From NCBI GenBank assembly GCA_019359715.1, contig JAHHGS010000116.1, positions 1 to 36,548 on the forward strand: a stretch of 36,548 nucleotides of DNA, in the 5' to 3' direction. Positions 27,422 through 36,548 of the stretch are shown here, piece by piece. The position numbers and the translations under genes were made by a program. Source of the stretch: Aphanocapsa sp. GSE-SYN-MK-11-07L. GTDB lineage: Bacteria; Cyanobacteriota; Cyanobacteriia; Thermosynechococcales; Thermosynechococcaceae. Each line of letters opens with the position of its first letter. Within the stretch, counting starts at the first letter, position 1. Below the pieces are notes generated by a model. It was given only the letters and a program-made list of their open reading frames with translations. It was not told the DNA's origin and did no database searches.

Positions 27422-27493
27422 GCCCGTGTGGCTCAGTGGTAGAGCACACCCTTGGTAAGGGTGAGGTCACGAGTTCAATCCTCGTCACGGGCT
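27422..27493 (+). tRNA. tRNA-Thr (GGT)
   Basis: A 72-base tRNA 12 bases after tRNA-Tyr. Acceptor GCCCGTG pairs with CACGGGC. The anticodon arm is CACCC-TTGGTAA-GGGTG with GGT at 27454-27456, and the T loop is TTCAATC. CCA is not encoded. The accessory element with its integrase begins directly after this gene, so its 3' end is the probable attachment site. Confidence 0.95.
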
Positions 27494-27620
27494 TTGGTTG
27501 GGGAACCAAGAATTAGTAAGGCTTTTGGGGATGTTCCAGACATCTCCTAAAGTCTTTGTTGTTGTCAATAAGCCAATGAAGATAGGTCGTTAGGGCTGTC
27601 TGGGGTTGTAAAACTACCCC
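27494..27620 (+). other. Candidate attachment region with three inverted repeats
   Basis: Between tRNA-Thr and the integrase are three hairpins: TTGGTT-GGGG-AACCAA (27494-27509), GGGGATGT-TCCAG-ACATCTCC (27527-27547, one G-T pair) and GGGGT-N9-ACCCC (27602-27620). None has a T run. They may be integrase arm or excisionase sites at an attL. The matching right end is not in the window, so the att core cannot be defined. Confidence 0.4.
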
Positions 27621-27634
27621 GGAATTTACCCCGC

Positions 27635-28747
27635 ATGAAATGCACAATCGAAAACCATAATGGCAGGCTACGACTGCGCTGGCGCTCTCAAGAGGGCAAA
27701 CGCTACACGATGGGCTGTGGTGTGAATGATCATGCCAGCGGACGCGCGATCGCCAAACTGAAAGCGGCCCAGATTGAGAAAGACCTGCTCAATGACTACT
27801 TTGATCCGACCTTGCTCAAGTATCGACCGCGCATTCTGGGCAAGAATGCGACTGAAATCAGCGCTCCTGAACTGTTTGAGCGCTATGCAGTGGCGATGAA
27901 ACGTGAGAAGCGACTGACCCCCAATGCCTATCAGAAGTATAGGGCGACCCTTTCCCACCTGAAGCGGTTCTTTGGTGAGGTTAATGCCCTGTCCATTGGC
28001 TCTCGCCGTGCAGGTGACTTTACCGCCTATCTTTTGGAGCGAATGGCTGGGCAAACCGCAAAGCCCTACCTGTTCCTGCTGCGAGGCTGTTGGAATTGGG
28101 CGCAAGGGAAATACCACACGACTCCTGAGAACCCCTGGTCTGATGAAATCGCCAAAGTAAAACCCCAACCCCAGCAACGCACCAAGCCTTTTGCTAGGGC
28201 TGAAATTACCGCAATTCTGAACGGGTTCAAGAGCGATCGCCATTACAGCCACTATGCTGATGTGGTAGCTTTCCTATTTGGTACAGGATGTAGACCCGGT
28301 GAGGCGTTCGGGTTGCGATGGCGCAACGTTGCTGATGATTTTGGGACGGCTCAAATCTGTCAGACCGTTAGCCGTGGGCACCATCGCAACCAAACTAAAA
28401 CCGGGAAAAGCCGAACTATTATTTTTAATCCATCCATCCAGGCAATGCTGAAAACCCGCTATTTGCAGCAGCAGCCACAGCCCGATCGTTTGGTGTTTGC
28501 CAGCCCTACGGGTAAACCCATTGATGATAAACGGTTCAATCAAAGAGCCTGGAAAACGGTTCTTGAACGGTTAGGAATTGACTACAGAAGACCTAACACG
28601 ATGAGGCATTCAGCGATTAGTCATGCCCTAGCTAATGGTGTGAACCCCATCGACCTAGCAGAGCAGACCGGGCACGATAAACGAGTGCTGCTCTCAACCT
28701 ACGCTCATGCGATCAGCCAGCAGTCCCTGTTTGTGGAGTTTGAATGA
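27635..28747 (+). CDS. Tyrosine recombinase (integrase) of an integrative element
   Basis: Site-specific recombinase of 370 residues. The N-terminus (MKCTIENHNGRLRLRWRSQE) matches the DUF3596-type arm-binding domain of cyanobacterial and phage integrases. A SAM-like core-binding domain spans about 75-165. Catalytic residues are R220 (GTGCRPGEAFGLRW), probable K258, R324 in NTMR (Asn replaces the first His of HxxR), H347 (TGHDKR) and the nucleophile Y356 (STYAH). It lies 142 bases from tRNA-Thr, the usual position beside the attachment site. The following gene overlaps its stop codon, suggesting an operon. Confidence 0.92.
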   Translation: MKCTIENHNGRLRLRWRSQEGKRYTMGCGVNDHASGRAIAKLKAAQIEKDLLNDYFDPTLLKYRPRILGKNATEISAPELFERYAVAMKREKRLTPNAYQKYRATLSHLKRFFGEVNALSIGSRRAGDFTAYLLERMAGQTAKPYLFLLRGCWNWAQGKYHTTPENPWSDEIAKVKPQPQQRTKPFARAEITAILNGFKSDRHYSHYADVVAFLFGTGCRPGEAFGLRWRNVADDFGTAQICQTVSRGHHRNQTKTGKSRTIIFNPSIQAMLKTRYLQQQPQPDRLVFASPTGKPIDDKRFNQRAWKTVLERLGIDYRRPNTMRHSAISHALANGVNPIDLAEQTGHDKRVLLSTYAHAISQQSLFVEFE

Positions 28748-29613
28748 TGCCTATCTTGCAAAACAAATATTCCAAAATGCATGGATATGTAGCTGTCGTC
28801 CCATGGCCGCCATCTACAAAAGATGCTGAATGGGACAGGGTTCTTTCTCTTCTCTGTGCCCCACATTGTCTGATTGAAGGTGATTTATACGATCGCTCAC
28901 AATCCCTTAGTCTGCAAGGTTACGTTGCAATAGCGGTTCACTGGCTTTATCGAAAGGGCTGGAAATCAGGACATCGACTAACGGGGGGTTGCCCTGAACT
29001 TTGGCGAGGAATTGAACCGCTCGGAGATTTACTGCTAGTCATTCTGAAGGTTGCTGAAGCAGTCTTTAATAGCCAAGAAAAGGGCTTCCCGCAGTGCAAC
29101 CCGCCAGTTAGCCACCCGGCTCAGGTCTTCCTTCCCGCCGCTGTTCAGATGATGTTGATTGCCCTAGTGTCTCGTGAGGGAAAGTGTGGCAAAAGTGACC
29201 ACATCAAGGAATTAAGGGAACTGACTAGAATACTACGCAACAAGGCAAACCAGGATTCGGATGAAGAGCCGCAAAACCCATTTTCAAAACTGCACGAACC
29301 TGAGCTTTGGCAACTAATAGAAGCCGCTTGCTACATCAATCGAGAGATTGCTACACCAATCCCCTTTGACCTTTTGCTGCACGGTACGCCCAAGAAGAAA
29401 GGGCTGCTTTTCGCTCTAACCGGATGGATTGAACGGCTTGAAGTTAAAGGCAGCAATTGGCAAGTTGTGATCCGAGATCCTGACTATGTGGCACTAATTC
29501 GAGCTTTTGGAAGGGGCAACAGCCTTCGGCAGATTCCGATTATTGACCTAGAAACACTCGTTTCAAAAACACATTTTTTGAAACGCTCTCCTAGCAAGGG
29601 TTTTGGGCGGTAA
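28744..29613 (+). CDS. Hypothetical protein downstream of the integrase
   Basis: A 289-residue soluble protein I do not recognise. It starts at an ATGATG overlapping the integrase stop, with GGAG 5-8 bases before, so it is translationally coupled to the integrase. It has a hydrophobic/helical middle (LGDLLLVILKVAEAVF and VFLPAAVQMMLIALVS), a charged region (HIKELRELTRILRNKANQDSDEEPQN) and a Phe/Lys-rich C-terminal tail. No enzyme motif or clear HTH is visible. Coupling to the integrase suggests a role in recombination, element control or host benefit, but nothing in the sequence decides. Confidence 0.65.
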   Translation: MMPILQNKYSKMHGYVAVVPWPPSTKDAEWDRVLSLLCAPHCLIEGDLYDRSQSLSLQGYVAIAVHWLYRKGWKSGHRLTGGCPELWRGIEPLGDLLLVILKVAEAVFNSQEKGFPQCNPPVSHPAQVFLPAAVQMMLIALVSREGKCGKSDHIKELRELTRILRNKANQDSDEEPQNPFSKLHEPELWQLIEAACYINREIATPIPFDLLLHGTPKKKGLLFALTGWIERLEVKGSNWQVVIRDPDYVALIRAFGRGNSLRQIPIIDLETLVSKTHFLKRSPSKGFGR

Positions 29614-29779
29614 ATTGGAGCCAGAATTCAAGGTGGCTTTTGAGGGTTTAATGCCTCTTAAGCCCAAAAGTTTTGTTAACTCAAAGCCGATCGCTACTCG
29701 TTCCCCAACGCACCAGCGATCGGCTTACCCCAACCGACAAACTCGCAAATTTACAAATTTACCGGAGGTTTCCCCAATT

Positions 29780-30043
29780 ATGGCAAAGACGATCGCCCCC
29801 AAACAGCAATTCATGTTCGTTGGCTCCGCAGTTCTCGAAGCCCGGCTCGACCTACGCAAAACCCAGCGTGTTGAACTCCAAAAGCAATTGCCTTGTCCTC
29901 TCTACTGGTTTCAGTTTCCCGGCGGCCGCAAGGTTTTTTGGAACTGGGAATTAGTGCAGGATTACCTGATCAACGGCGACGGCCCCAACCATCAGCGATT
30001 GGTTGAGCAATATTTAGCAACCCTGCCCAATCCCGCCGCCTAA
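29780..30043 (+). CDS. Small winged-helix-like protein, possible excisionase
   Basis: An 87-residue protein starting at the ATG at 29780 (MAKTIAPKQQ), with GGAGG 11 bases upstream. The frame is open further upstream, but that part is low-complexity and has no signal. The middle LYWFQFPGGRKVFWNWELVQDYLI resembles the wing and recognition part of excisionase/MerR-like small DNA-binding proteins, in which a short basic hairpin precedes a tryptophan-containing helix. Position near the integrase fits a recombination directionality factor. The family assignment is inference and moderately weak. Confidence 0.6.
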   Translation: MAKTIAPKQQFMFVGSAVLEARLDLRKTQRVELQKQLPCPLYWFQFPGGRKVFWNWELVQDYLINGDGPNHQRLVEQYLATLPNPAA

Positions 30044-30049
30044 AAAATA

Positions 30050-30080
30050 GCGATCGCCCTCTACCACGGAAGGCGATCGC
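30050..30080 (+). terminator. HIP1-based hairpin between two element genes
   Basis: GCGATCGCC (30050-30058) and GGCGATCGC (30072-30080) are exact inverted arms, so each arm is itself a HIP1 palindrome. A TTTTT run follows 8 bases later. It may end the upstream transcript, or be an incidental HIP1 pair. Confidence 0.4.
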
Positions 30081-30124
30081 CATTCAATTTTTCCAAAAAT
30101 TACCGCGCAAAGGACGCGACTAAC

Positions 30125-30331
30125 ATGAGTTTACCAAAAAATCACTGTCTCAAAACAGATACACCTCCACCCCTGACCCAGACACTCAATCGCCTCGAAA
30201 CGCTGTACGCGATTGCCCACTCTCCCCAGTGGTTGCTAGGCGCATTCAGCCGTGAGGCGGGCCATCTGGGCGTATCGCCCTCATTGGTCTGGCACCTTTG
30301 GCAAACCTACGAACAGTGGGGGCGGCGCTGA
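30125..30331 (+). CDS. Small hypothetical protein before the replication gene
   Basis: A 68-residue protein with AAGGA about 10 bases before the ATG. Residues about 28-64 (AHSPQWLLGAFSREAGHLGVSPSLVWHLWQTYEQWG) form two or three helices with the look of a small helix-turn-helix, but the match is not to a family I know. Its stop codon overlaps the start of the replication protein by one base (TGATG), so the two are coupled and it may be a replication accessory or regulator. Confidence 0.6.
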   Translation: MSLPKNHCLKTDTPPPLTQTLNRLETLYAIAHSPQWLLGAFSREAGHLGVSPSLVWHLWQTYEQWGRR

Positions 30332-32859
30332 TGGCGTACGATATTCGCTTATTCGAGGAACTACTGGACACCACCAGAGAGAAAAACCGCTACGTTTGCC
30401 CTGCCTGTGGCGATCCGAATCTCACGATCAGCCCCAAAACTGGGGCGTACCGTTGCCACGCCAACCTTTGCGATAGCGATGCGATTCGAGATGCGATCGA
30501 TAAATTGGCCGGTAAAATTCCCTACAAGACGAATGGCAGGCGTAGGAGAAAACTAGAGCCAGGAACCCTTGAGGCTAGAGTGATCACTCGCAAAGCAGCA
30601 GCGCTAGGGGCGTTTAACGGCCCAGAGGCTTGGATGCCTGACCGTGATGAGATTGCAGCCAAAGAACCTGAGCCAGAGCCAGAGAGTGCAGTGGAACCTG
30701 AGCCAGAGTGCTCTAGCCCGGTTCAGTCACCCTCAGATAGCGCTGTAGAGGGTGAGTCACAATCTCCCCACTATGAAACCAGTCCAGAGGGCGGGCTGTA
30801 CTGGGTTAGTCACGAAAAAACCAGCAATGGCAGTTTGACTAAGACCCAAACCAAGGTCGGAAATCACCTGGCAGCGATCGCCTACGTCGCTTCACCCGAT
30901 GGCGATGGAGCTGGCATTCTGCTAGAACTCAAGACCCAGCAAGTCCATCTCCAGCGCTGGACAATGCCCCGTCGAGCGCTGGGAGGTGATTCAGCAGTGC
31001 TGATCGGTGAATTGCTCGATCGCGGCTATGGTCTGGTGTTTGACCAGAAACGCAAATTGGCCCGCTACTTGACCGAGTTAGGCACTGAACTCAGCCAGAC
31101 CTACACCATCAGCAACGCCACTGGCTGGGTAAACGGTTCGTTTTTATTGCCTAACCTGACAATTGGCGATCAGTCTCTCAAATACCGCGATGTTGAACCG
31201 TTGCCCGACTGCCCTATTGAGTTAAAGGGCACAGCCCAGAGTTGGCAGGATACGGTTGGCAAACTCGCTAGTGGCAATAGCAGGCTGATTTTTGCGATCG
31301 GGGTTGCCCTGGGCGCTCCCCTAGCCCCGTTGCTGGACATTGAATCGGGTGGGTTCCACTACGTCGGATTAAGCTCCACTGGCAAAACGACTGCCCTGTG
31401 TGTTGCTGGTTCAGTGTCAGGGCTGAAAAAACTCTCATCTTGGAATAGCACAGTGAACGGCTTAGAGGCAGTGGCAACCGCTCATAATCATCTGCTACTG
31501 CCATTAGACGAGATTGGTGAGGCCAATCCCCGTGATGTGGGAGCTGCCGCCTACATGCTGGCCAATGGTCAGGGCAAACAGCGGATGAGCCGGGACTTGG
31601 TGGGGCGAAAGCGGCAGCAGTGGCAATTATTAACCCTTTCCAGTGGTGAGCTGAGCATGGCTGACTATCTCCGAACCGCTGGCATTAATCAGCGTGGCGG
31701 TCAGGAGGTGAGAATGCCCGATATTCCTGCCTGTCCCCATAACGGTCAGTATGGCGTTTTTGAGGAGATTCACGGGTACGCGACGGCGGCTGAGTTTGTC
31801 AGAGATCTAGAGGCAGCTTGCCGTGAGAATCGCGGCGCTCTGTTGCAAGCATTCCTGACTCAGCTAGTGGCGGATCAGGCTAACTCTGAGTGGTTGATTA
31901 GCCAGCGACGGCGATTACGGGCGATCGAAAACGAGCTGATGGGAGAGATTCAGGATGCGGTAATTGGTCGAGCTGCCAAACGATTTGCTTTAGTGCAGGT
32001 TGCTTTAGAGCTGGCCCACAGCTACGGGTTGCTCCCCTTTCCTTTAGATCAAATCCCCTGGGCAGTCTCAACCCTGTTCACTGATTGGCTGAATTTCAGA
32101 GGTGGAACTGGCTCAATTGAGGTTAAACAGTGTCTAGAGCGGATCGAGTCCGAGTTTGTTAAAAACGAGTTCAGCGATCGCATCTATAACGTTGACAAGC
32201 CGCCAACTGATTCTATTCGCAACTTGTTGGCCTACAGGAAGGTTGATTTCAGTAATCGGGCTGAGTTCTGGGTTCCACCGGCGGTTTTTAGAGAGTTGAC
32301 CCAGAGCGTTGACCGTGACCTAGTGACGGCTGAAATGTTGAGGCGGGGCTGGCTGCTGGGGCCAGATTCCGAGGGGAAAACCTCTACCGTGCGACGACTG
32401 GAAAATAAAACCATGCGAGTCTACGTTTTTACCCAATTTTGGCAAACCGAGGACGAGCCAACTCAAAAACCGTTTCCCCCTCTCTCTAAAACTGGTGTAA
32501 CGGGTGTAACAGGTGTAACGCCAACCCAGAACACAGGCATAGAGGGAATCTCAGCCGTTACACCATCTGTTACACCAGAAAATCCAGGGTGTAACGGTGT
32601 AACAGAACCAGGGTCAGAGAAAAATAATCAGGCATCAGCCATAGATGTAAACCTATCATCTGTTACACCTGTTACACCGGGGGATTTGAGGTGTAACACA
32701 AATACTGAGGCTCAAAACCCAGACACAGAGGCGGTTCCAGAAACCGTTACACCCGTTACACCTGTTACACCCAAAAACGAGAGAGAGGGAAATAGTTTTC
32801 AGGTTGGTGATTTCAAAACAGAAGATTTAGGGGAGGTGATCGATGTCGGGGATTTTTAA
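30331..32859 (+). CDS. DUF927-type replication protein: zinc ribbon plus P-loop helicase
   Basis: An 842-residue protein from the ATG at 30331 (the upstream frame from 30298 overlaps the previous gene). An N-terminal CHC2-like zinc ribbon has C23, C26, C42 and C47, as in phage and plasmid primases. An acidic Glu-Pro repeat linker (about 112-130) follows. The central region matches DUF927, a helicase-like family of mobile elements, with Walker A GLSSTGKTT (346-354) and Walker B LLPLDEIG (D393-E394). The last ~130 residues are low-complexity with GVTGVTGVT and VTPVTPVTP repeats, encoded by an iteron-like DNA array. No Toprim domain is obvious, so primase activity is inferred from the zinc ribbon only. 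It is the probable replication initiator/helicase of the element. Confidence 0.82.
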   Translation: MAYDIRLFEELLDTTREKNRYVCPACGDPNLTISPKTGAYRCHANLCDSDAIRDAIDKLAGKIPYKTNGRRRRKLEPGTLEARVITRKAAALGAFNGPEAWMPDRDEIAAKEPEPEPESAVEPEPECSSPVQSPSDSAVEGESQSPHYETSPEGGLYWVSHEKTSNGSLTKTQTKVGNHLAAIAYVASPDGDGAGILLELKTQQVHLQRWTMPRRALGGDSAVLIGELLDRGYGLVFDQKRKLARYLTELGTELSQTYTISNATGWVNGSFLLPNLTIGDQSLKYRDVEPLPDCPIELKGTAQSWQDTVGKLASGNSRLIFAIGVALGAPLAPLLDIESGGFHYVGLSSTGKTTALCVAGSVSGLKKLSSWNSTVNGLEAVATAHNHLLLPLDEIGEANPRDVGAAAYMLANGQGKQRMSRDLVGRKRQQWQLLTLSSGELSMADYLRTAGINQRGGQEVRMPDIPACPHNGQYGVFEEIHGYATAAEFVRDLEAACRENRGALLQAFLTQLVADQANSEWLISQRRRLRAIENELMGEIQDAVIGRAAKRFALVQVALELAHSYGLLPFPLDQIPWAVSTLFTDWLNFRGGTGSIEVKQCLERIESEFVKNEFSDRIYNVDKPPTDSIRNLLAYRKVDFSNRAEFWVPPAVFRELTQSVDRDLVTAEMLRRGWLLGPDSEGKTSTVRRLENKTMRVYVFTQFWQTEDEPTQKPFPPLSKTGVTGVTGVTPTQNTGIEGISAVTPSVTPENPGCNGVTEPGSEKNNQASAIDVNLSSVTPVTPGDLRCNTNTEAQNPDTEAVPETVTPVTPVTPKNEREGNSFQVGDFKTEDLGEVIDVGDF
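32494..32771. repeat. Array of 13 exact GGTGTAAC octamers in both orientations (iteron-like)
   Basis: GGTGTAAC is at 32494, 32503, 32512, 32588, 32596 and 32690. Its complement GTTACACC is at 32557, 32569, 32662, 32671, 32746, 32755 and 32764 (first bases). Eleven copies lie in one reading frame (Gly-Val-Thr or Val-Thr-Pro), while those at 32588 and 32690 are shifted and encode Cys-Asn. Copies come in twos and threes spaced 8, 9 or 12 bases. The stretch 32604-32661 between clusters is AT-richer. Confidence 0.85.
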
Positions 32860-33178
32860 TGCGATCGCGATTGGTAAATCCGGCACTGCCTACCCTGTGG
32901 CGAGGGTTGAGGGCAACCGATTGGTTCTAGCTACTCCTAAAGGGGCGATTAGGGTTCCTCGCAGTGCGATCGCACGGCTAGAGATTCCAGCATCACCTCA
33001 CCATTGGATGCCTGTGCCGGGTCAGCGAGTGGCAGAACTTGAAACGAGCCAAAGCGCGACCGTTAATCGCATTGACCCCGATGGCAGTATCGTTTTGTAT
33101 GCAACTCAGTCCCAGGATGCGATCGCTGGCAGATTTTATGCCTCCGAACTGCGGCCAGCAGTGGAGGATGCACCATGA
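32843..33178 (+). CDS. Small beta-rich hypothetical protein
   Basis: A 111-residue protein overlapping the end of the replication gene by 17 bases, with GGAGG 6-7 bases before the ATG. Alternating hydrophobic residues (YPVARVEGNRLVLATPKGAIRVP and VNRIDPDGSIVLYATQ) suggest two small beta-barrel or Tudor/SH3-like units, which are common in DNA-associated phage proteins. No family is recognised. Its position and coupling suggest a replication-linked accessory role. Confidence 0.65.
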   Translation: MSGIFNAIAIGKSGTAYPVARVEGNRLVLATPKGAIRVPRSAIARLEIPASPHHWMPVPGQRVAELETSQSATVNRIDPDGSIVLYATQSQDAIAGRFYASELRPAVEDAP

Positions 33179-33393
33179 CCGAGCAAATCGCCAGATCCTT
33201 TAGCGATTCCGGCAGCTACAGCGCCGACCCAGCCCAGCAGCGAGATAGCTTGCGGTCAGAGTGCCACAAACTGATCGAGGTGATTGCCCGTCGCCCTGGC
33301 TGCCTGAAGCTGCTGATGGGTGCCGTGTACGCCTTGGAGGTTTTCGCTGACTACAAGCGCGATCGCAGCATTCGCAAACCTCCCGGCCCCTAG
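33175..33393 (+). CDS. Small hypothetical protein
   Basis: A 72-residue protein whose ATG overlaps the previous stop (ATGA), so it is in the same operon. Residues about 24-60 are helical (SLRSECHKLIEVIARRPGCL and GAVYALEVFADYKRD) with a basic end. No known family or motif is seen. The reading frame contains a HIP1 site near 33360. Confidence 0.6.
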   Translation: MTEQIARSFSDSGSYSADPAQQRDSLRSECHKLIEVIARRPGCLKLLMGAVYALEVFADYKRDRSIRKPPGP

Positions 33394-33447
33394 AAGTGCA
33401 GCGTTTTTCCACAGGCACACCTAAAATGTTGAAAACCAGGAGAAAAA

Positions 33448-34011
33448 ATGAGTCAAATCTTACAGACCGATTCGATTAGCGACCTTGAAACCGAGCTAAA
33501 CCAAGCTCAAAGCCTGTTGAGCCAATTGCTCTTACAGTTGGCTGAGTCTGAGGCAGTTCAGCCGGAATTTGGTGGAGATGTGGGCGATTTAGCCGATCAA
33601 CTGACGAACAAGGTGATCAAAGAGAATGCCCTAAGAAGTGCGATCGTCCAAACTCAAAGCAAAGTTTCTGATCTGAGAGCAGCCCTTGACGCGGCAATTC
33701 TGAAGCAAGAGCAGAGGGTCGCCGAAGGAGAAACCGTCATCTTGCTTGATGAATTAAAACTTCTGGCTGAAACCTTTAATCAGAAGCAGCTTGAGTTGAT
33801 TGAAACCATGAAGCAAATCAATCAAACGGCTAACAAATATTCCAACCATTACGCCATCGCTCATGGCGACTATCGCAGCCCCCTAAACGTTCCACAGCTT
33901 GACTACCGCGCTTCTCTGTTCTCAAAAATCGACACCAGCGTGATTTACTTTTTCGGGCTGCAAGACCCGGAACACGGCGGCAAATGGCTGTATTTATTAG
34001 GGGGCAAATAG
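33448..34011 (+). CDS. Coiled-coil hypothetical protein
   Basis: A 187-residue protein preceded by AGGAG. Residues about 8-130 show heptad-like hydrophobic spacing (DLETELNQAQSLLSQLLLQLAES, then LLDELKLLAETFNQKQLELIETMKQINQT) and should form a coiled coil. The last ~55 residues are a separate globular part (YAIAHGDYRSPLNVPQLDYR and IYFFGLQDPEHGGKWLYLLG). The family is not recognised. The next gene starts on the base after its stop codon. Confidence 0.65.
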   Translation: MSQILQTDSISDLETELNQAQSLLSQLLLQLAESEAVQPEFGGDVGDLADQLTNKVIKENALRSAIVQTQSKVSDLRAALDAAILKQEQRVAEGETVILLDELKLLAETFNQKQLELIETMKQINQTANKYSNHYAIAHGDYRSPLNVPQLDYRASLFSKIDTSVIYFFGLQDPEHGGKWLYLLGGK

Positions 34012-34440
34012 ATGAAGACAATTGCGGATTTGAGTGATAGCGAGATGCAACTTTTGGCATCCGTCCCTGCTGGCGATCGCAAGAACGTCTTAAAGGTGTT
34101 TGGAGTAGAGTTACAAGGTGCGATCGCTCAAGATGAACCCTCAGAGCTAAAGGCTAAGGATGACCAGGGGATGGGGGTACAGAGAGAGCCAAAAGCCGAC
34201 CCCTTAGAGGGTTTGCATGGAATGGATAAATTGGCGCAGGCTGAACGCTTGGGAATTGTTAGCCAGAATCTAAGACCCGACCGCCAAAGACGCGGGGCAT
34301 CAGAGCGAAAGGCTCAGAACATGAGCATGACCGAGAAATACAAGCAGCTAGAAGGGCTGCATGGGATGGATAAACTGAAGAAAGCTGAAGAGTTGGGATT
34401 GGTTAGCACTCCACCCCGCAAGCAAGGTAAGCGAGGTTAG
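34012..34440 (+). CDS. Hypothetical protein with a duplicated LEGLHGMDKL motif
   Basis: A 142-residue protein, charged and poor in large hydrophobics apart from an N-terminal helix (IADLSDSEMQLLASVPAGDRKNVLKVFG). A unit of about 20 residues occurs twice: LEGLHGMDKLAQAERLGIVS (65-84) and LEGLHGMDKLKKAEELGLVS (113-132), separated by a basic linker. The identical decamer is encoded by diverged codons. This suggests two copies of a short peptide that docks on a partner protein. Family unknown. It lies between the coiled-coil protein and the terminase-like genes. Confidence 0.65.
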   Translation: MKTIADLSDSEMQLLASVPAGDRKNVLKVFGVELQGAIAQDEPSELKAKDDQGMGVQREPKADPLEGLHGMDKLAQAERLGIVSQNLRPDRQRRGASERKAQNMSMTEKYKQLEGLHGMDKLKKAEELGLVSTPPRKQGKRG

Positions 34441-34446
34441 TCGATC

Positions 34447-34920
34447 ATGAGTAGACCTGGCAGACCCACTAAGTTAACCCCCCAAGTGCAGCAGAAAATC
34501 CTAGATGCAATCCAAAATGGAATGCACTTGGAAACCGCTTGTGAACTTGCCGGAATCGACTACTCGACGTTCCGAAGATGGATGCAAAAAGGCGCTGAAA
34601 GTCATCCTGCATCGAGTCCAAAGCGTGAATTTAGCGATTTTTGCGAGGATGTTACGCGCGCGATCGCGAAGAGTGAAGCTGCTCTGCTGGGCAAAATCCA
34701 AAGCAGTCCCGATTGGAGAGCGCAGGGCTGGATCTTAGAGCGGCGCTTCCCTGAGCGCTGGGCAAATAGTCATCGGGTGCAAATCCTGCTGCAAAGGGAG
34801 ATGGAAGCGATTCTCGACCAACTGGAACGAACGATGCCCAAGCAGGAGTACGCTAGCCTGTTCTACTACATCTCTGCCTTGGAGCAGACCGTTATTATCG
34901 AAAACGGCGCGAAACGATAA
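34447..34920 (+). CDS. Phage HTH protein, terminase small-subunit-like
   Basis: A 157-residue protein beginning with the GRPTKLTPQVQQKILDAIQNG motif, then ETACELAGIDYSTFRRWMQKG, a helix-turn-helix of the type found in phage terminase small subunits and related packaging or regulatory proteins. FSDFCEDVTRAIAKSEAALLGKIQ and WILERRFPERWA continue this family pattern. The C-terminal helices are unlike the standard. It sits directly before a second, more typical small terminase, so it could be a paralogous DNA-binding protein that redirects packaging or regulates late genes. Confidence 0.75.
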   Translation: MSRPGRPTKLTPQVQQKILDAIQNGMHLETACELAGIDYSTFRRWMQKGAESHPASSPKREFSDFCEDVTRAIAKSEAALLGKIQSSPDWRAQGWILERRFPERWANSHRVQILLQREMEAILDQLERTMPKQEYASLFYYISALEQTVIIENGAKR

Positions 34921-34927
34921 TAAGAAG

Positions 34928-35476
34928 ATGATGAACGCTAAACAACTGAGGTTTTGCCAAGAATACATGATCGATTTCAATGGCACTCAAGCGGCGATCC
35001 GGGCTGGGTATAGCAAGAAGACAGCTAGATTTATCGCAACTGAGAACCTAACAAAACCCAACATTCAAGCCAAAATCGCCGAGTTGGTTAGGATTCAAGC
35101 CGATAGGTTGGAAATTACCTCTGAGGCAGTCATGCAGGAATTAGCGGCGATCGCATTCTCCAGGATTGATGACGTGCTGACAGTAGAGGGCGGCCAGGTG
35201 ATCATTAAGCCCTCATCCCAGTGGTCGCCATCTGCAAGAGTAGCGATTCAAAACATCAAGCAGACCCAACATGGAATCAGCATCACGATGCATAGCAAAG
35301 TCGCAGCCTTAGAAAAGCTGATGATGCGCTTTGGGTTGAACCAGCCCGACCCAGATATCCCGACTGGAGCAGAGTTTGAGCTAGTATTGCCAACCGTGGT
35401 GAATATTGGAGTTGCCGATATGCGATCGCCAGAGATTGAAGCCGAGCTAGGGGAAAATGGGTGGCGGCTCAATTAG
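34928..35476 (+). CDS. Terminase small subunit (Terminase_2 family)
   Basis: A 182-residue phage DNA-packaging protein. The N-terminal MNAKQLRFCQEYMIDFNGTQ, then AAIRAGYSKKTARFIATENLTKPNIQAKI, is the classic DNA-binding domain of the Terminase_2 small subunit, which recognises the packaging site. Residues 50-150 (RLEITSEAVMQELAAIAFSRIDDVL) fit the oligomerisation domain. Two adjacent ATGs occur; the second (34931) is equally possible. In a phage the large terminase normally follows, but here the strand ends in two palindromes and convergent genes, with no large subunit in the window. Confidence 0.85.
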   Translation: MMNAKQLRFCQEYMIDFNGTQAAIRAGYSKKTARFIATENLTKPNIQAKIAELVRIQADRLEITSEAVMQELAAIAFSRIDDVLTVEGGQVIIKPSSQWSPSARVAIQNIKQTQHGISITMHSKVAALEKLMMRFGLNQPDPDIPTGAEFELVLPTVVNIGVADMRSPEIEAELGENGWRLN

Positions 35477-35480
35477 AGCG

Positions 35481-35505
35481 CTAAGTTTGAAAGTTTCAAG
35501 CTTAG
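35481..35505. repeat. 25-base palindrome just after the terminase gene
   Basis: CTAAGTTTGAAA and TTTCAAGCTTAG (one G-T pair) flank a central G, starting 5 bases after the terminase small-subunit stop. No T run follows, so a terminator is not certain. An operator or protein-binding palindrome is the alternative. Confidence 0.5.
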
Positions 35506-35553
35506 AGCAATGGTGAAACCGTTGGCTTCCATCGCAAGTGTTTTCGTTGTTTT

Positions 35554-35578
35554 GGTCGGTGACACGGTGTCACCGACC
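35554..35578. repeat. Perfect 12-base palindrome between convergent genes
   Basis: GGTCGGTGACAC (35554-35565) and GTGTCACCGACC (35567-35578) are exact inverted arms around one G. It lies between the + strand terminase gene and the convergent minus-strand gene. GC-rich arms without a T run on either side fit a dyad operator or packaging/resolution site as well as a bidirectional terminator. Confidence 0.6.
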
Positions 35579-35637
35579 TAAGAGGTTCTGGCGAAATTCC
35601 CAAATCGCGGGAGTCTCCGGCGATTGGGTCTGAGAAT

Positions 35638-35904
35638 TCAGTCAATATACAAGGGCGGCCAAGCTGAATCGATCAGGTTGTCAACCTCCGACAAGCTCAG
35701 CAATCCAGACCTAAAGGCATCATGTGCCCAGTCGCTCAGCAAGTCCCAGGTTTGATAGCGGGCTGCCAGCAGAACCGCCGCTTCGGTTGCAGCGTCTTGA
35801 GAAGGATAGCCCGACTGTTCATCCATGAAAGAATTGTCCACCGCGTCAAATAGCTCGAATCTCCACTCTCTACCGTCGTGGCGTACGGCAACATTGATTC
35901 TCAT
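35638..35904 (-). CDS. Small hypothetical protein
   Basis: An 88-residue protein with a beta-rich start (MRINVAVRHDGREWRFELFD) and a helical, acidic C-terminal half ending SAWPPLYID. Its ATG overlaps the upstream stop (ATGA), so it is co-transcribed with the 169-residue protein upstream. No known family is recognised. Both genes run against the rest of the element. Confidence 0.6.
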   Translation of the reverse strand: MRINVAVRHDGREWRFELFDAVDNSFMDEQSGYPSQDAATEAAVLLAARYQTWDLLSDWAHDAFRSGLLSLSEVDNLIDSAWPPLYID

Positions 35905-36410
35905 CTGGCTAACCCAAACTTCTGAACCGTGCCCAGATACAACGTTGTGGCAATGGTTCTAATACTGTCCTGGTCTTCAATCAGCCCATCAAACTTGCTG
36001 TGAGCCGTCAGATAGCAGAAGCGGTAGAGGTCAGCTTGTCCATCGATATAAGCAGCGATCGCCCGCTTGGTGTCAGCACTGATCGCACTAGTTTGAACTG
36101 GGGCGATGGTGCGTTGCTCATAGTCTTTGCTGACTTGGGATTGTGCTGGCTGAGTGACAACGATATTATGCTTAGTCTTGCCGTTCTTATCCTGGCCCGC
36201 TGGCACCAATTGAACGCGATCGCCCTGCATAATCTGACTCACTTCATCCCCACTCAGAGACTTCCATATCTTGGCTTCCTCAGAACCCTCTGGCTGAGAG
36301 AGGTCAATAAATAGGGTGGGGTAGTAAAAGGTATTGGGTTGATAGGCAGAGGGTTTTGGCTTGCCGATGACTTCAACCCTGGCACTAATCGGATTAACAA
36401 CTTTAGCCAT
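35901..36410 (-). CDS. Hypothetical protein, possibly a single-stranded DNA-binding OB-fold protein
   Basis: A 169-residue protein from the ATG at 36410 (MAKVVNPISARVEVIG). The frame remains open to 36449, but those extra residues are encoded inside the end of an insertion sequence, so 36410 is chosen. The N-terminal half is beta-rich (FYYPTLFIDLSQ and GDRVQLVPAGQDKNGKTKHNIVV), then a Gln/Ser linker and a helical C-terminus. This shape, with the neighbouring replication genes, would suit an OB-fold DNA-binding protein, but no diagnostic motif is visible. The IS end lies 14 bases before the start codon, so the native promoter and ribosome binding site appear displaced. Confidence 0.6.
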   Translation of the reverse strand: MAKVVNPISARVEVIGKPKPSAYQPNTFYYPTLFIDLSQPEGSEEAKIWKSLSGDEVSQIMQGDRVQLVPAGQDKNGKTKHNIVVTQPAQSQVSKDYEQRTIAPVQTSAISADTKRAIAAYIDGQADLYRFCYLTAHSKFDGLIEDQDSIRTIATTLYLGTVQKFGLAR

Positions 36411-36423
36411 GATTAGGGAACTC

Positions 36424-36548
36424 TGACCTTGCCCCGAAAAAGTGGACAATTCCCAAGAGTCGTCAACTCAGGAGAAAGTTCACATGACACAAAAACCCCG
36501 CAGGCTATTTACAGACGAGCAGAAAGCGGAGGCCGTCCGCATCGTCAA
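36424..36548 (+). mobile_element. Left end of an IS3-family insertion sequence (cut by the window)
   Basis: The terminus TGACCTTGCCCCGAAAAAG begins with TG and resembles IS3-family inverted repeats. A transposase OrfA reading frame starts 60 bases inside it. The right end and target duplication are beyond the window. Confidence 0.75.
36484..36548 (+). CDS. IS3-family transposase OrfA, partial (5' end only)
   Basis: The first 21 codons (MTQKPRRLFTDEQKAEAVRI) match the start of the OrfA helix-turn-helix of IS3-family transposases. AGGAG precedes the ATG by 9 bases. OrfA binds the IS ends and is normally joined to the DDE transposase OrfB by -1 frameshifting. The gene is truncated only because the window ends. 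Confidence 0.8.
   Translation, partial: MTQKPRRLFTDEQKAEAVRIV

Follow-up and report, generated by a model that had tools for sequence, protein, structure and literature searches.

The right-hand part of contig C116 from the cyanobacterium Aphanocapsa sp. GSE-SYN-MK-11-07L (genome size 5.1 Mb) carries an integrated island that is probably a complete tRNA-integrated phage satellite, with the layout of phage-inducible chromosomal islands (PICIs) and of P4. The contig was analysed over its whole length of 36,548 nt, referred to below as the window. From left to right, a tRNA-Thr gene is followed by an integrase, small genes, a DUF927 helicase, further small genes and two terminase-like genes, an order that had been proposed in an earlier note made from the sequence alone and that is confirmed by open reading frames (ORFs), ARAGORN, Pfam and PHROGs. 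The island has no recognised gene for conjugation, and none for a large terminase or for a portal, capsid or tail protein, and neither structural nor lytic genes were found among the ten proteins of the window and three proteins of contig C105 scanned with Pfam and PHROGs.

Integration site and boundaries

The island is integrated at an intact tRNA-Thr(GGT) gene (27422..27493, plus strand; ARAGORN). The core of the left attachment (att) site, attL (27443..27495, plus strand), is a direct repeat of attR, a 53-nt copy of the 3' part of tRNA-Thr on the minus strand of contig C105 (L014 9460-9512), near the end of that contig. Insertion at the 3' end of the tRNA gene created a 53-bp duplication, and the tRNA itself remained complete. 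The adjacent gene (27635..28747, plus strand) encodes a tyrosine integrase of 370 aa, as the earlier note had stated, with matches to Phage_integrase (6.7e-20) and phrog_1 (1.5e-47).

As the earlier note had indicated, the island is broken at the right end of the window by an insertion sequence (IS), in which the contig stops. Its last 125 bp (36424..36548, plus strand) belong to the left end of this IS, which is present in multiple copies. C116 and C105 both terminate about 125 bases into this IS, and their terminal inverted repeats agree. Of the 29 places in the genome that match the IS, 12 are at least 90% identical across the full 125 bases. The flanking triplets were compared at 10 left and 6 right ends and in one rearranged copy (C91), the copies on C53, C27, C11, C132, C40, C139 and C19 lying outside this comparison. 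Left ends are flanked by CTC (C116), TTT, TTC, ATG, ATG, TTA, TGC, AAC, AAT and TAG, and right ends by CTC (C105), GTT, ATA, GGT, GCC and ATG. Among the ends compared, CTC thus flanks one left end and one right end only, and because this flank occurs once per side and the att repeat spans the two contigs, the inferred join of C116 to C105 is convincing, though not assembled.

The part of C105 between the IS and attR is 1,044 bp long and contains three small genes, whose products are a protein of 77 aa, one of 65 aa and a coiled-coil protein. The earlier note had expected a right att repeat past the IS, and it is present after these three small genes as a 52/53 copy of the 3' end of tRNA-Thr. 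Large terminase, portal and capsid genes, which by the same note would have made the element an ordinary prophage, are absent from this stretch. An ordinary prophage cut by the IS was therefore rejected, since the right att site lies just 1,044 bp past the IS and no phage structural genes are found in between. The element accordingly comprises positions 27496-36423, a further 1.04 kb and the IS, or about 10.0 kb without the IS.

The sequence past attR appears to be the C-terminal piece of another tyrosine recombinase, which suggests that the tRNA-Thr site has been hit by an earlier integration too. Sister island L037 likewise carries an extra N-terminal integrase piece past its own attR. Eleven other genomes of the order match the tRNA-Tyr/tRNA-Thr pair as an uninterrupted unit, and the eight of them with at least 1.2 kb downstream gave no match to the three integrases tried. 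In the uncultured cyanobacterium PMM_0072, an island of 11.9 kb with a 50% identical integrase occupies the same tRNA-Tyr/tRNA-Thr site. HIP1 sites, previously taken as a sign of long residence, do not bear that reading out, with 17 sites in the 8.9 kb of the island and 32 in the 27.4 kb of the host part, a density difference that is not significant (p = 0.13).

The replication gene and its terminal repeats

The central gene of the island, rep (30331..32859, plus strand), codes for a protein of 842 aa whose description as a zinc-ribbon/helicase replication protein is upheld by a strong match to DUF927 (5.7e-56) and weak zinc-ribbon matches at residues 32-53. Its better start is the ATG at 30331, in overlap with the stop codon of the gene before it, which encodes a 68-aa protein of unassigned family (30125..30331, plus strand; ORF call and profile scan). 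The helicase part of Rep resembles a pathogenicity island protein (PDB 8tch, 2.2e-12) and PDB 5dgk (1.3e-9). According to a paper on SCCmec (PMC7581432), the DUF927 helicase Cch is related to Rep of SaPIbov1, and Rep of Staphylococcus aureus pathogenicity islands (SaPIs) recognises iterons directly downstream of its own gene.

The iterons reported in the earlier note are indeed present. The word GGTGTAAC occurs 13 times, in both orientations, at 32494..32771, within the final 370 bp of rep, and the rest of the 36.5 kb holds a single further copy; no 8-mer exceeded three copies in 200 randomised rep-end sequences generated as first-order Markov resamples rather than exact dinucleotide shuffles. 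This cluster is a candidate replication origin of the P4/PICI style. The iterons form several clusters, and a 58-bp spacer (32604-32661) has an AT content of 60% compared with 49% for the island.

The same arrangement is found beyond the window. A clustered 8-mer at the end of rep exceeded all 200 randomised sequences in 8 of 9 cyanobacterial elements, with a different word in each element, for example 12 copies of AGGTTCCA in G111, 13 of CGCTTCAC in Chamaesiphon and 7 of AGTGACCA on contig C149 of the host; the rep end on C107 was marginal with 4 copies, and L024 had none. For a wider DUF927 set 80 loci were fetched, of which 7 short ones were set aside, 1 was dropped for lack of room and 72 were examined; at least five copies of one word were present in 39/72 of them and in 0/72 gene-body controls, the 39 including many close relatives and not representing independent cases. 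Randomised controls for this set were likewise first-order Markov resamples. GGTGTAAC itself recurs in DUF927 loci of Yersinia and Pantoea. In one Yersinia element (L067 11660-11890), the GGTGTAAC repeats lie directly after rep. The words used by this Rep family give the impression of a single motif that diversifies across phyla.

DUF927 Rep relatives at a threshold of E 1e-20 are encoded by 4 of 388 genomes, the host included. In the host genome, the Rep of a sister island on C149 (L034 10462-12684) is, over its own first 124 residues, 74% identical to the Rep described here and has a different helicase part, apparently as a result of module swapping. Among 55 proteins scanned from five proteobacterial DUF927 loci there were five integrases, three excisionase/AlpA-type regulators and two Psu-like proteins, and on these grounds the five loci look P4-like.

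Small terminases in tandem and sister islands

The two terminase-like genes noted earlier both code for proteins with matches to small terminases (TerS). TerS1 (34447..34920, plus strand) is assigned to the Shigella Sf6 type by phrog_4102 (7.7e-33), with a weak sequence match to the Sf6 gp1 structures (E 0.007). A Foldseek search with TerS1 gave nothing below E 0.001, and it is the less certain terminase of the two. TerS2 (34928..35476, plus strand) is of the SPP1/SF6 type, matching Terminase_2 in Pfam (3.5e-38), 3zqp (7.2e-11) and the Pam5 small terminase (0.0016). The best match of its predicted model, which has a mean predicted local distance difference test score (pLDDT) of 75 and a predicted template modelling score (pTM) of 0.44, is the full-length SPP1-like TerS 3zqq_C (E 1.1e-4). 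The two genes end a compact run in which those for a 187-aa protein, a 142-aa protein, TerS1 and TerS2 are separated by gaps of 0, 6 and 7 bp.

Relatives of TerS1 (E 1e-8) occur in 3 and those of TerS2 (E 1e-6) in 12 of 388 genomes of the class, the host included in both counts. Seven relatives of TerS2 were found in IMG/VR, where none was confirmed for TerS1 or the integrase. The neighbourhoods of 10 of the 12 other TerS2 places were fetched, and a large terminase gene adjoins the TerS2 relative in seven of these ten, from which it appears that this protein family does serve phage packaging in Cyanobacteria. No large terminase adjoins the relatives at L217, L218 and L225, two of which have a DUF3854-like primase nearby. 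TerS1 and TerS2 were not seen side by side a second time among the loci examined, and the phrase 'two small terminase' did not occur in the 15 papers listed, of 141, in a literature search on satellites. In another genome (G349, contig C11; L023 5176-10102), a TerS1 relative has a large terminase and a central tail fibre J protein as neighbours; the proteins scanned from this locus included no identified portal or capsid.

Related integrases are encoded elsewhere in the host genome beside tRNA-Pro(CGG) on C107, tRNA-Ala(GGC) on C144, tRNA-Pro(GGG) on C22 (a remnant) and tRNA-Val(GAC) on C149. Of ten tRNA-flanked loci searched for att repeats, five had them, the misses (L012, L013, L023, L032 and L034) including contig ends and a remnant. 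In the five bounded sister islands, from the host and related genomes, the att repeats span 44-58 bp and the islands measure 7.2-17.7 kb. Besides the PMM_0072 island, they include a 7.2-kb island with TerS1 at tRNA-Thr(TGT) in G017 and a 9.6-kb island at tRNA-Arg in Acaryochloris. The largest is that on C107 (L010/L011 5037-22851, 17.7 kb) at tRNA-Pro(CGG), which is bounded by a 50-bp att repeat (98%) and encodes a primase-helicase and a phrog_645-type helix-turn-helix (HTH) protein beside a large terminase (phrog_38 1.2e-103); type I restriction-like genes come after, and no portal or capsid was seen among five of its proteins profiled. No structural protein was found with PHROGs and Pfam among 52 sister-island proteins from six loci, a scan that left out integrases, Reps and a few others and in which two TerS were recognised.

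The sister islands thus repeat the same layout of integrase, Rep and origin without structural genes at five tRNA sites. This recurrence in bounded elements argues against a decayed prophage that has lost its particle genes and retained integrase, replication and TerS genes, as do the intact open frames of the island and the presence of two TerS of different class, which would not be expected from a single prophage. Such an origin would suit the TerS2 relatives, which are mostly prophage genes next to a large terminase (the seven loci above), and on balance we regard it as exceedingly improbable.

Several points weigh against a satellite of the PICI/P4 kind. TerS was not recognised in sister islands L032, L033 and L037 and is therefore not universal in the family, and in a second G017 island, of 9.0 kb at tRNA-Pro(CGG) (C2), TerS1 is interrupted by a stop. 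A regulator of the Stl or AlpA type was not recognised in the Pfam and PHROGs scans, and formal membership among the PICIs is to that extent unproven. The satellite reading of the earlier note is supported by the layout, att repeats, replicon, TerS and sister islands. No helper phage was identified: the host genome gave no match to portal PF04860 or TerL_nuclease PF20441 and one to the HK97 capsid (C102), a search of three families that leaves room for a helper in the genome. Finally, the link of C116 to C105 across the IS does not come from an assembly, and excision and packaging are putative steps.

The missing and broken TerS genes, together with the self-contained replicon, would fit an integrative, plasmid-like island that replicates itself independently of phages and has acquired TerS as DNA-binding cargo or regulators. 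This is fairly improbable, considering that no relaxase or partition gene was recognised among the window proteins scanned (Pfam), that two separate TerS genes in tandem are difficult to account for as chance cargo, and that phiAH14b (16.8 kb) and vB_Pae_U10 (10.2 kb), both deposited as phages, carry a DUF927 Rep with an integrase and regulators. A search for plasmid relatives of the island gave no near match.

The C102 locus (L291 12485-18127) encodes a 605-aa head protein of the protease-capsid type (phrog_617 1.7e-109) beside a primase-helicase at the contig end, and also holds a ribbon-helix-helix relative. It may mark where a prophage begins or ends, or else belong to a satellite that carries a capsid gene.

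Integration, replicon and TerS identity of the island can be read from sequence, and if it is a satellite, as preferred here, its excision, induction and packaging may be pictured as follows. Infection by a helper phage, or its induction, would trigger excision of the island, Rep would load on the iterons and amplify it, and one or both TerS would dock on the large terminase of the helper, so that island DNA enters the particles of the helper. Each TerS class could suit a different type of helper, or one of the two could impede packaging of the helper. In its most developed and rather unlikely form, this proposal describes a bispecific satellite whose Sf6-type and SPP1-type TerS are each fitted to a different helper motor, allowing it to ride two unrelated phage lineages, with members of the family bearing private origin words at several tRNA genes per genome. 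A variant in which one TerS, more likely TerS1, acts against the helper (e.g. by poisoning its terminase) instead of packaging the island draws on the fact that one helper needs no two TerS classes and on the lower certainty of TerS1, for which the fold search found no match below the threshold. In PICIs, TerS is tied to packaging (PMC6092414), and the variant is decidedly improbable.

Remaining genes and comparison with known systems

The integrase gene is followed by a gene for a 289-aa protein (28744..29613, plus strand) with no match in Pfam, PHROGs or PADLOC. The best positional candidate for the excisionase suggested earlier is the 87-aa protein encoded at 29780..30043 (plus strand), which is common to sister islands (relatives on C107 and in L037); with a sub-threshold DUF5513 match only, it can be termed an excisionase or regulator by position alone. 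Its start was re-chosen so as to lie downstream of a GGAGG and to agree with the relative on C107, also of 87 aa. The small proteins encoded at 29780-30331 and the 65-aa protein of C105 remain candidates for the regulator. Downstream of rep lie genes for a 111-aa protein common to sister islands (32843..33178, relative in L032), a 72-aa protein without Pfam match (33175..33393), the 187-aa protein with weak coiled-coil type matches only (33448..34011) and the 142-aa protein (34012..34440), unassigned in the Pfam and PHROGs scans, all on the plus strand. The earlier note had overlooked two minus-strand genes, for an 88-aa (35638..35904) and a 169-aa protein (35901..36410), both of unassigned family (ORF call and profile scan). 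Between TerS2 and these convergent genes there is a near-perfect palindrome (35554-35578), its 12-bp arms separated by a single nucleotide, which may be a terminator or some other site. Defence cargo was considered and dismissed, as PADLOC gave nothing convincing for ten proteins and its LmuB-type matches fell on a coiled-coil protein.

PICIs are described in PMC6092414 as having an integrase with a specific att site that prophages never use, no structural or lytic genes, a typical size of about 15 kb, iterons at the end of rep in two sets around an AT-rich stretch, a master regulator (Stl/Rpr or AlpA) and, in some cases, TerS; they are induced by a helper phage, interfere with it and are packaged by it. 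The island shares with the PICIs of Gram-negative bacteria and the SaPIs, as far as the sources consulted describe them, an integrase gene at one end, a helicase gene followed by short repeats, TerS, and the lack of recognised structural and lytic genes. Its size of about 10.0 kb without the IS is in keeping with sizes near 10-15 kb and below the typical value. It departs from PICIs in the tandem arrangement of two TerS that differ in class, in the position of the iterons within the coding end of rep, in having no recognised Stl/AlpA regulator and in its cyanobacterial host. The tandem pair is its unusual feature and may offer a testable handle on helper range.

P4-like satellites resemble the island in their tRNA-type integration and in carrying, just where the replication gene ends, short repeats of 8 bases that occur in both orientations. 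The crr repeats of P4 lie just past alpha and are mostly TGTTCACC, whereas the island has TGTTACACC and CGTTACACC. The Psu-like proteins and AlpA-type regulators of P4-like elements are carried by the proteobacterial DUF927 relatives. Two P4 features were looked for and not found in the island: alpha-type primase-helicase similarity is not significant (best E 2.8 over 49 aa between alpha and Rep), and no homologues of psu, sid or delta were detected in the PHROGs and Pfam scans of the window genes. In contrast to P4-like satellites, TerS is present. The island shows the PICI features examined, apart from the regulator and the AT-rich spacer, which gave no clear answer, and lacks these two P4 features; it thus seems to work like a satellite of the PICI/P4 type and is not filed as a proven PICI. 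A further testable handle is the pairing of Rep with its iterons, in which the repeat word varies with the element and the position is kept; related words occur in P4 and enterobacterial elements.

Tycheposons of Prochlorococcus, as described second-hand in PMC10872708 and PMC11389934, are also cyanobacterial and tRNA-associated and have a tyrosine recombinase; they are described as cargo carriers of 4-200 kb. Among the papers listed in a search of the literature on phage satellites and PICIs in cyanobacteria, with most subscription journals outside it, none deals with such an island in this family. Novel satellite types have recently been reported in Cyanobacteria and Actinobacteria, according to PMC11389934, and satellites in the phylum are therefore already known and not new. 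With the present island, the range of phage satellites that bear TerS and replicate themselves would come to include the cyanobacterial family of Acaryochloris, in which a single genome holds several sister islands.

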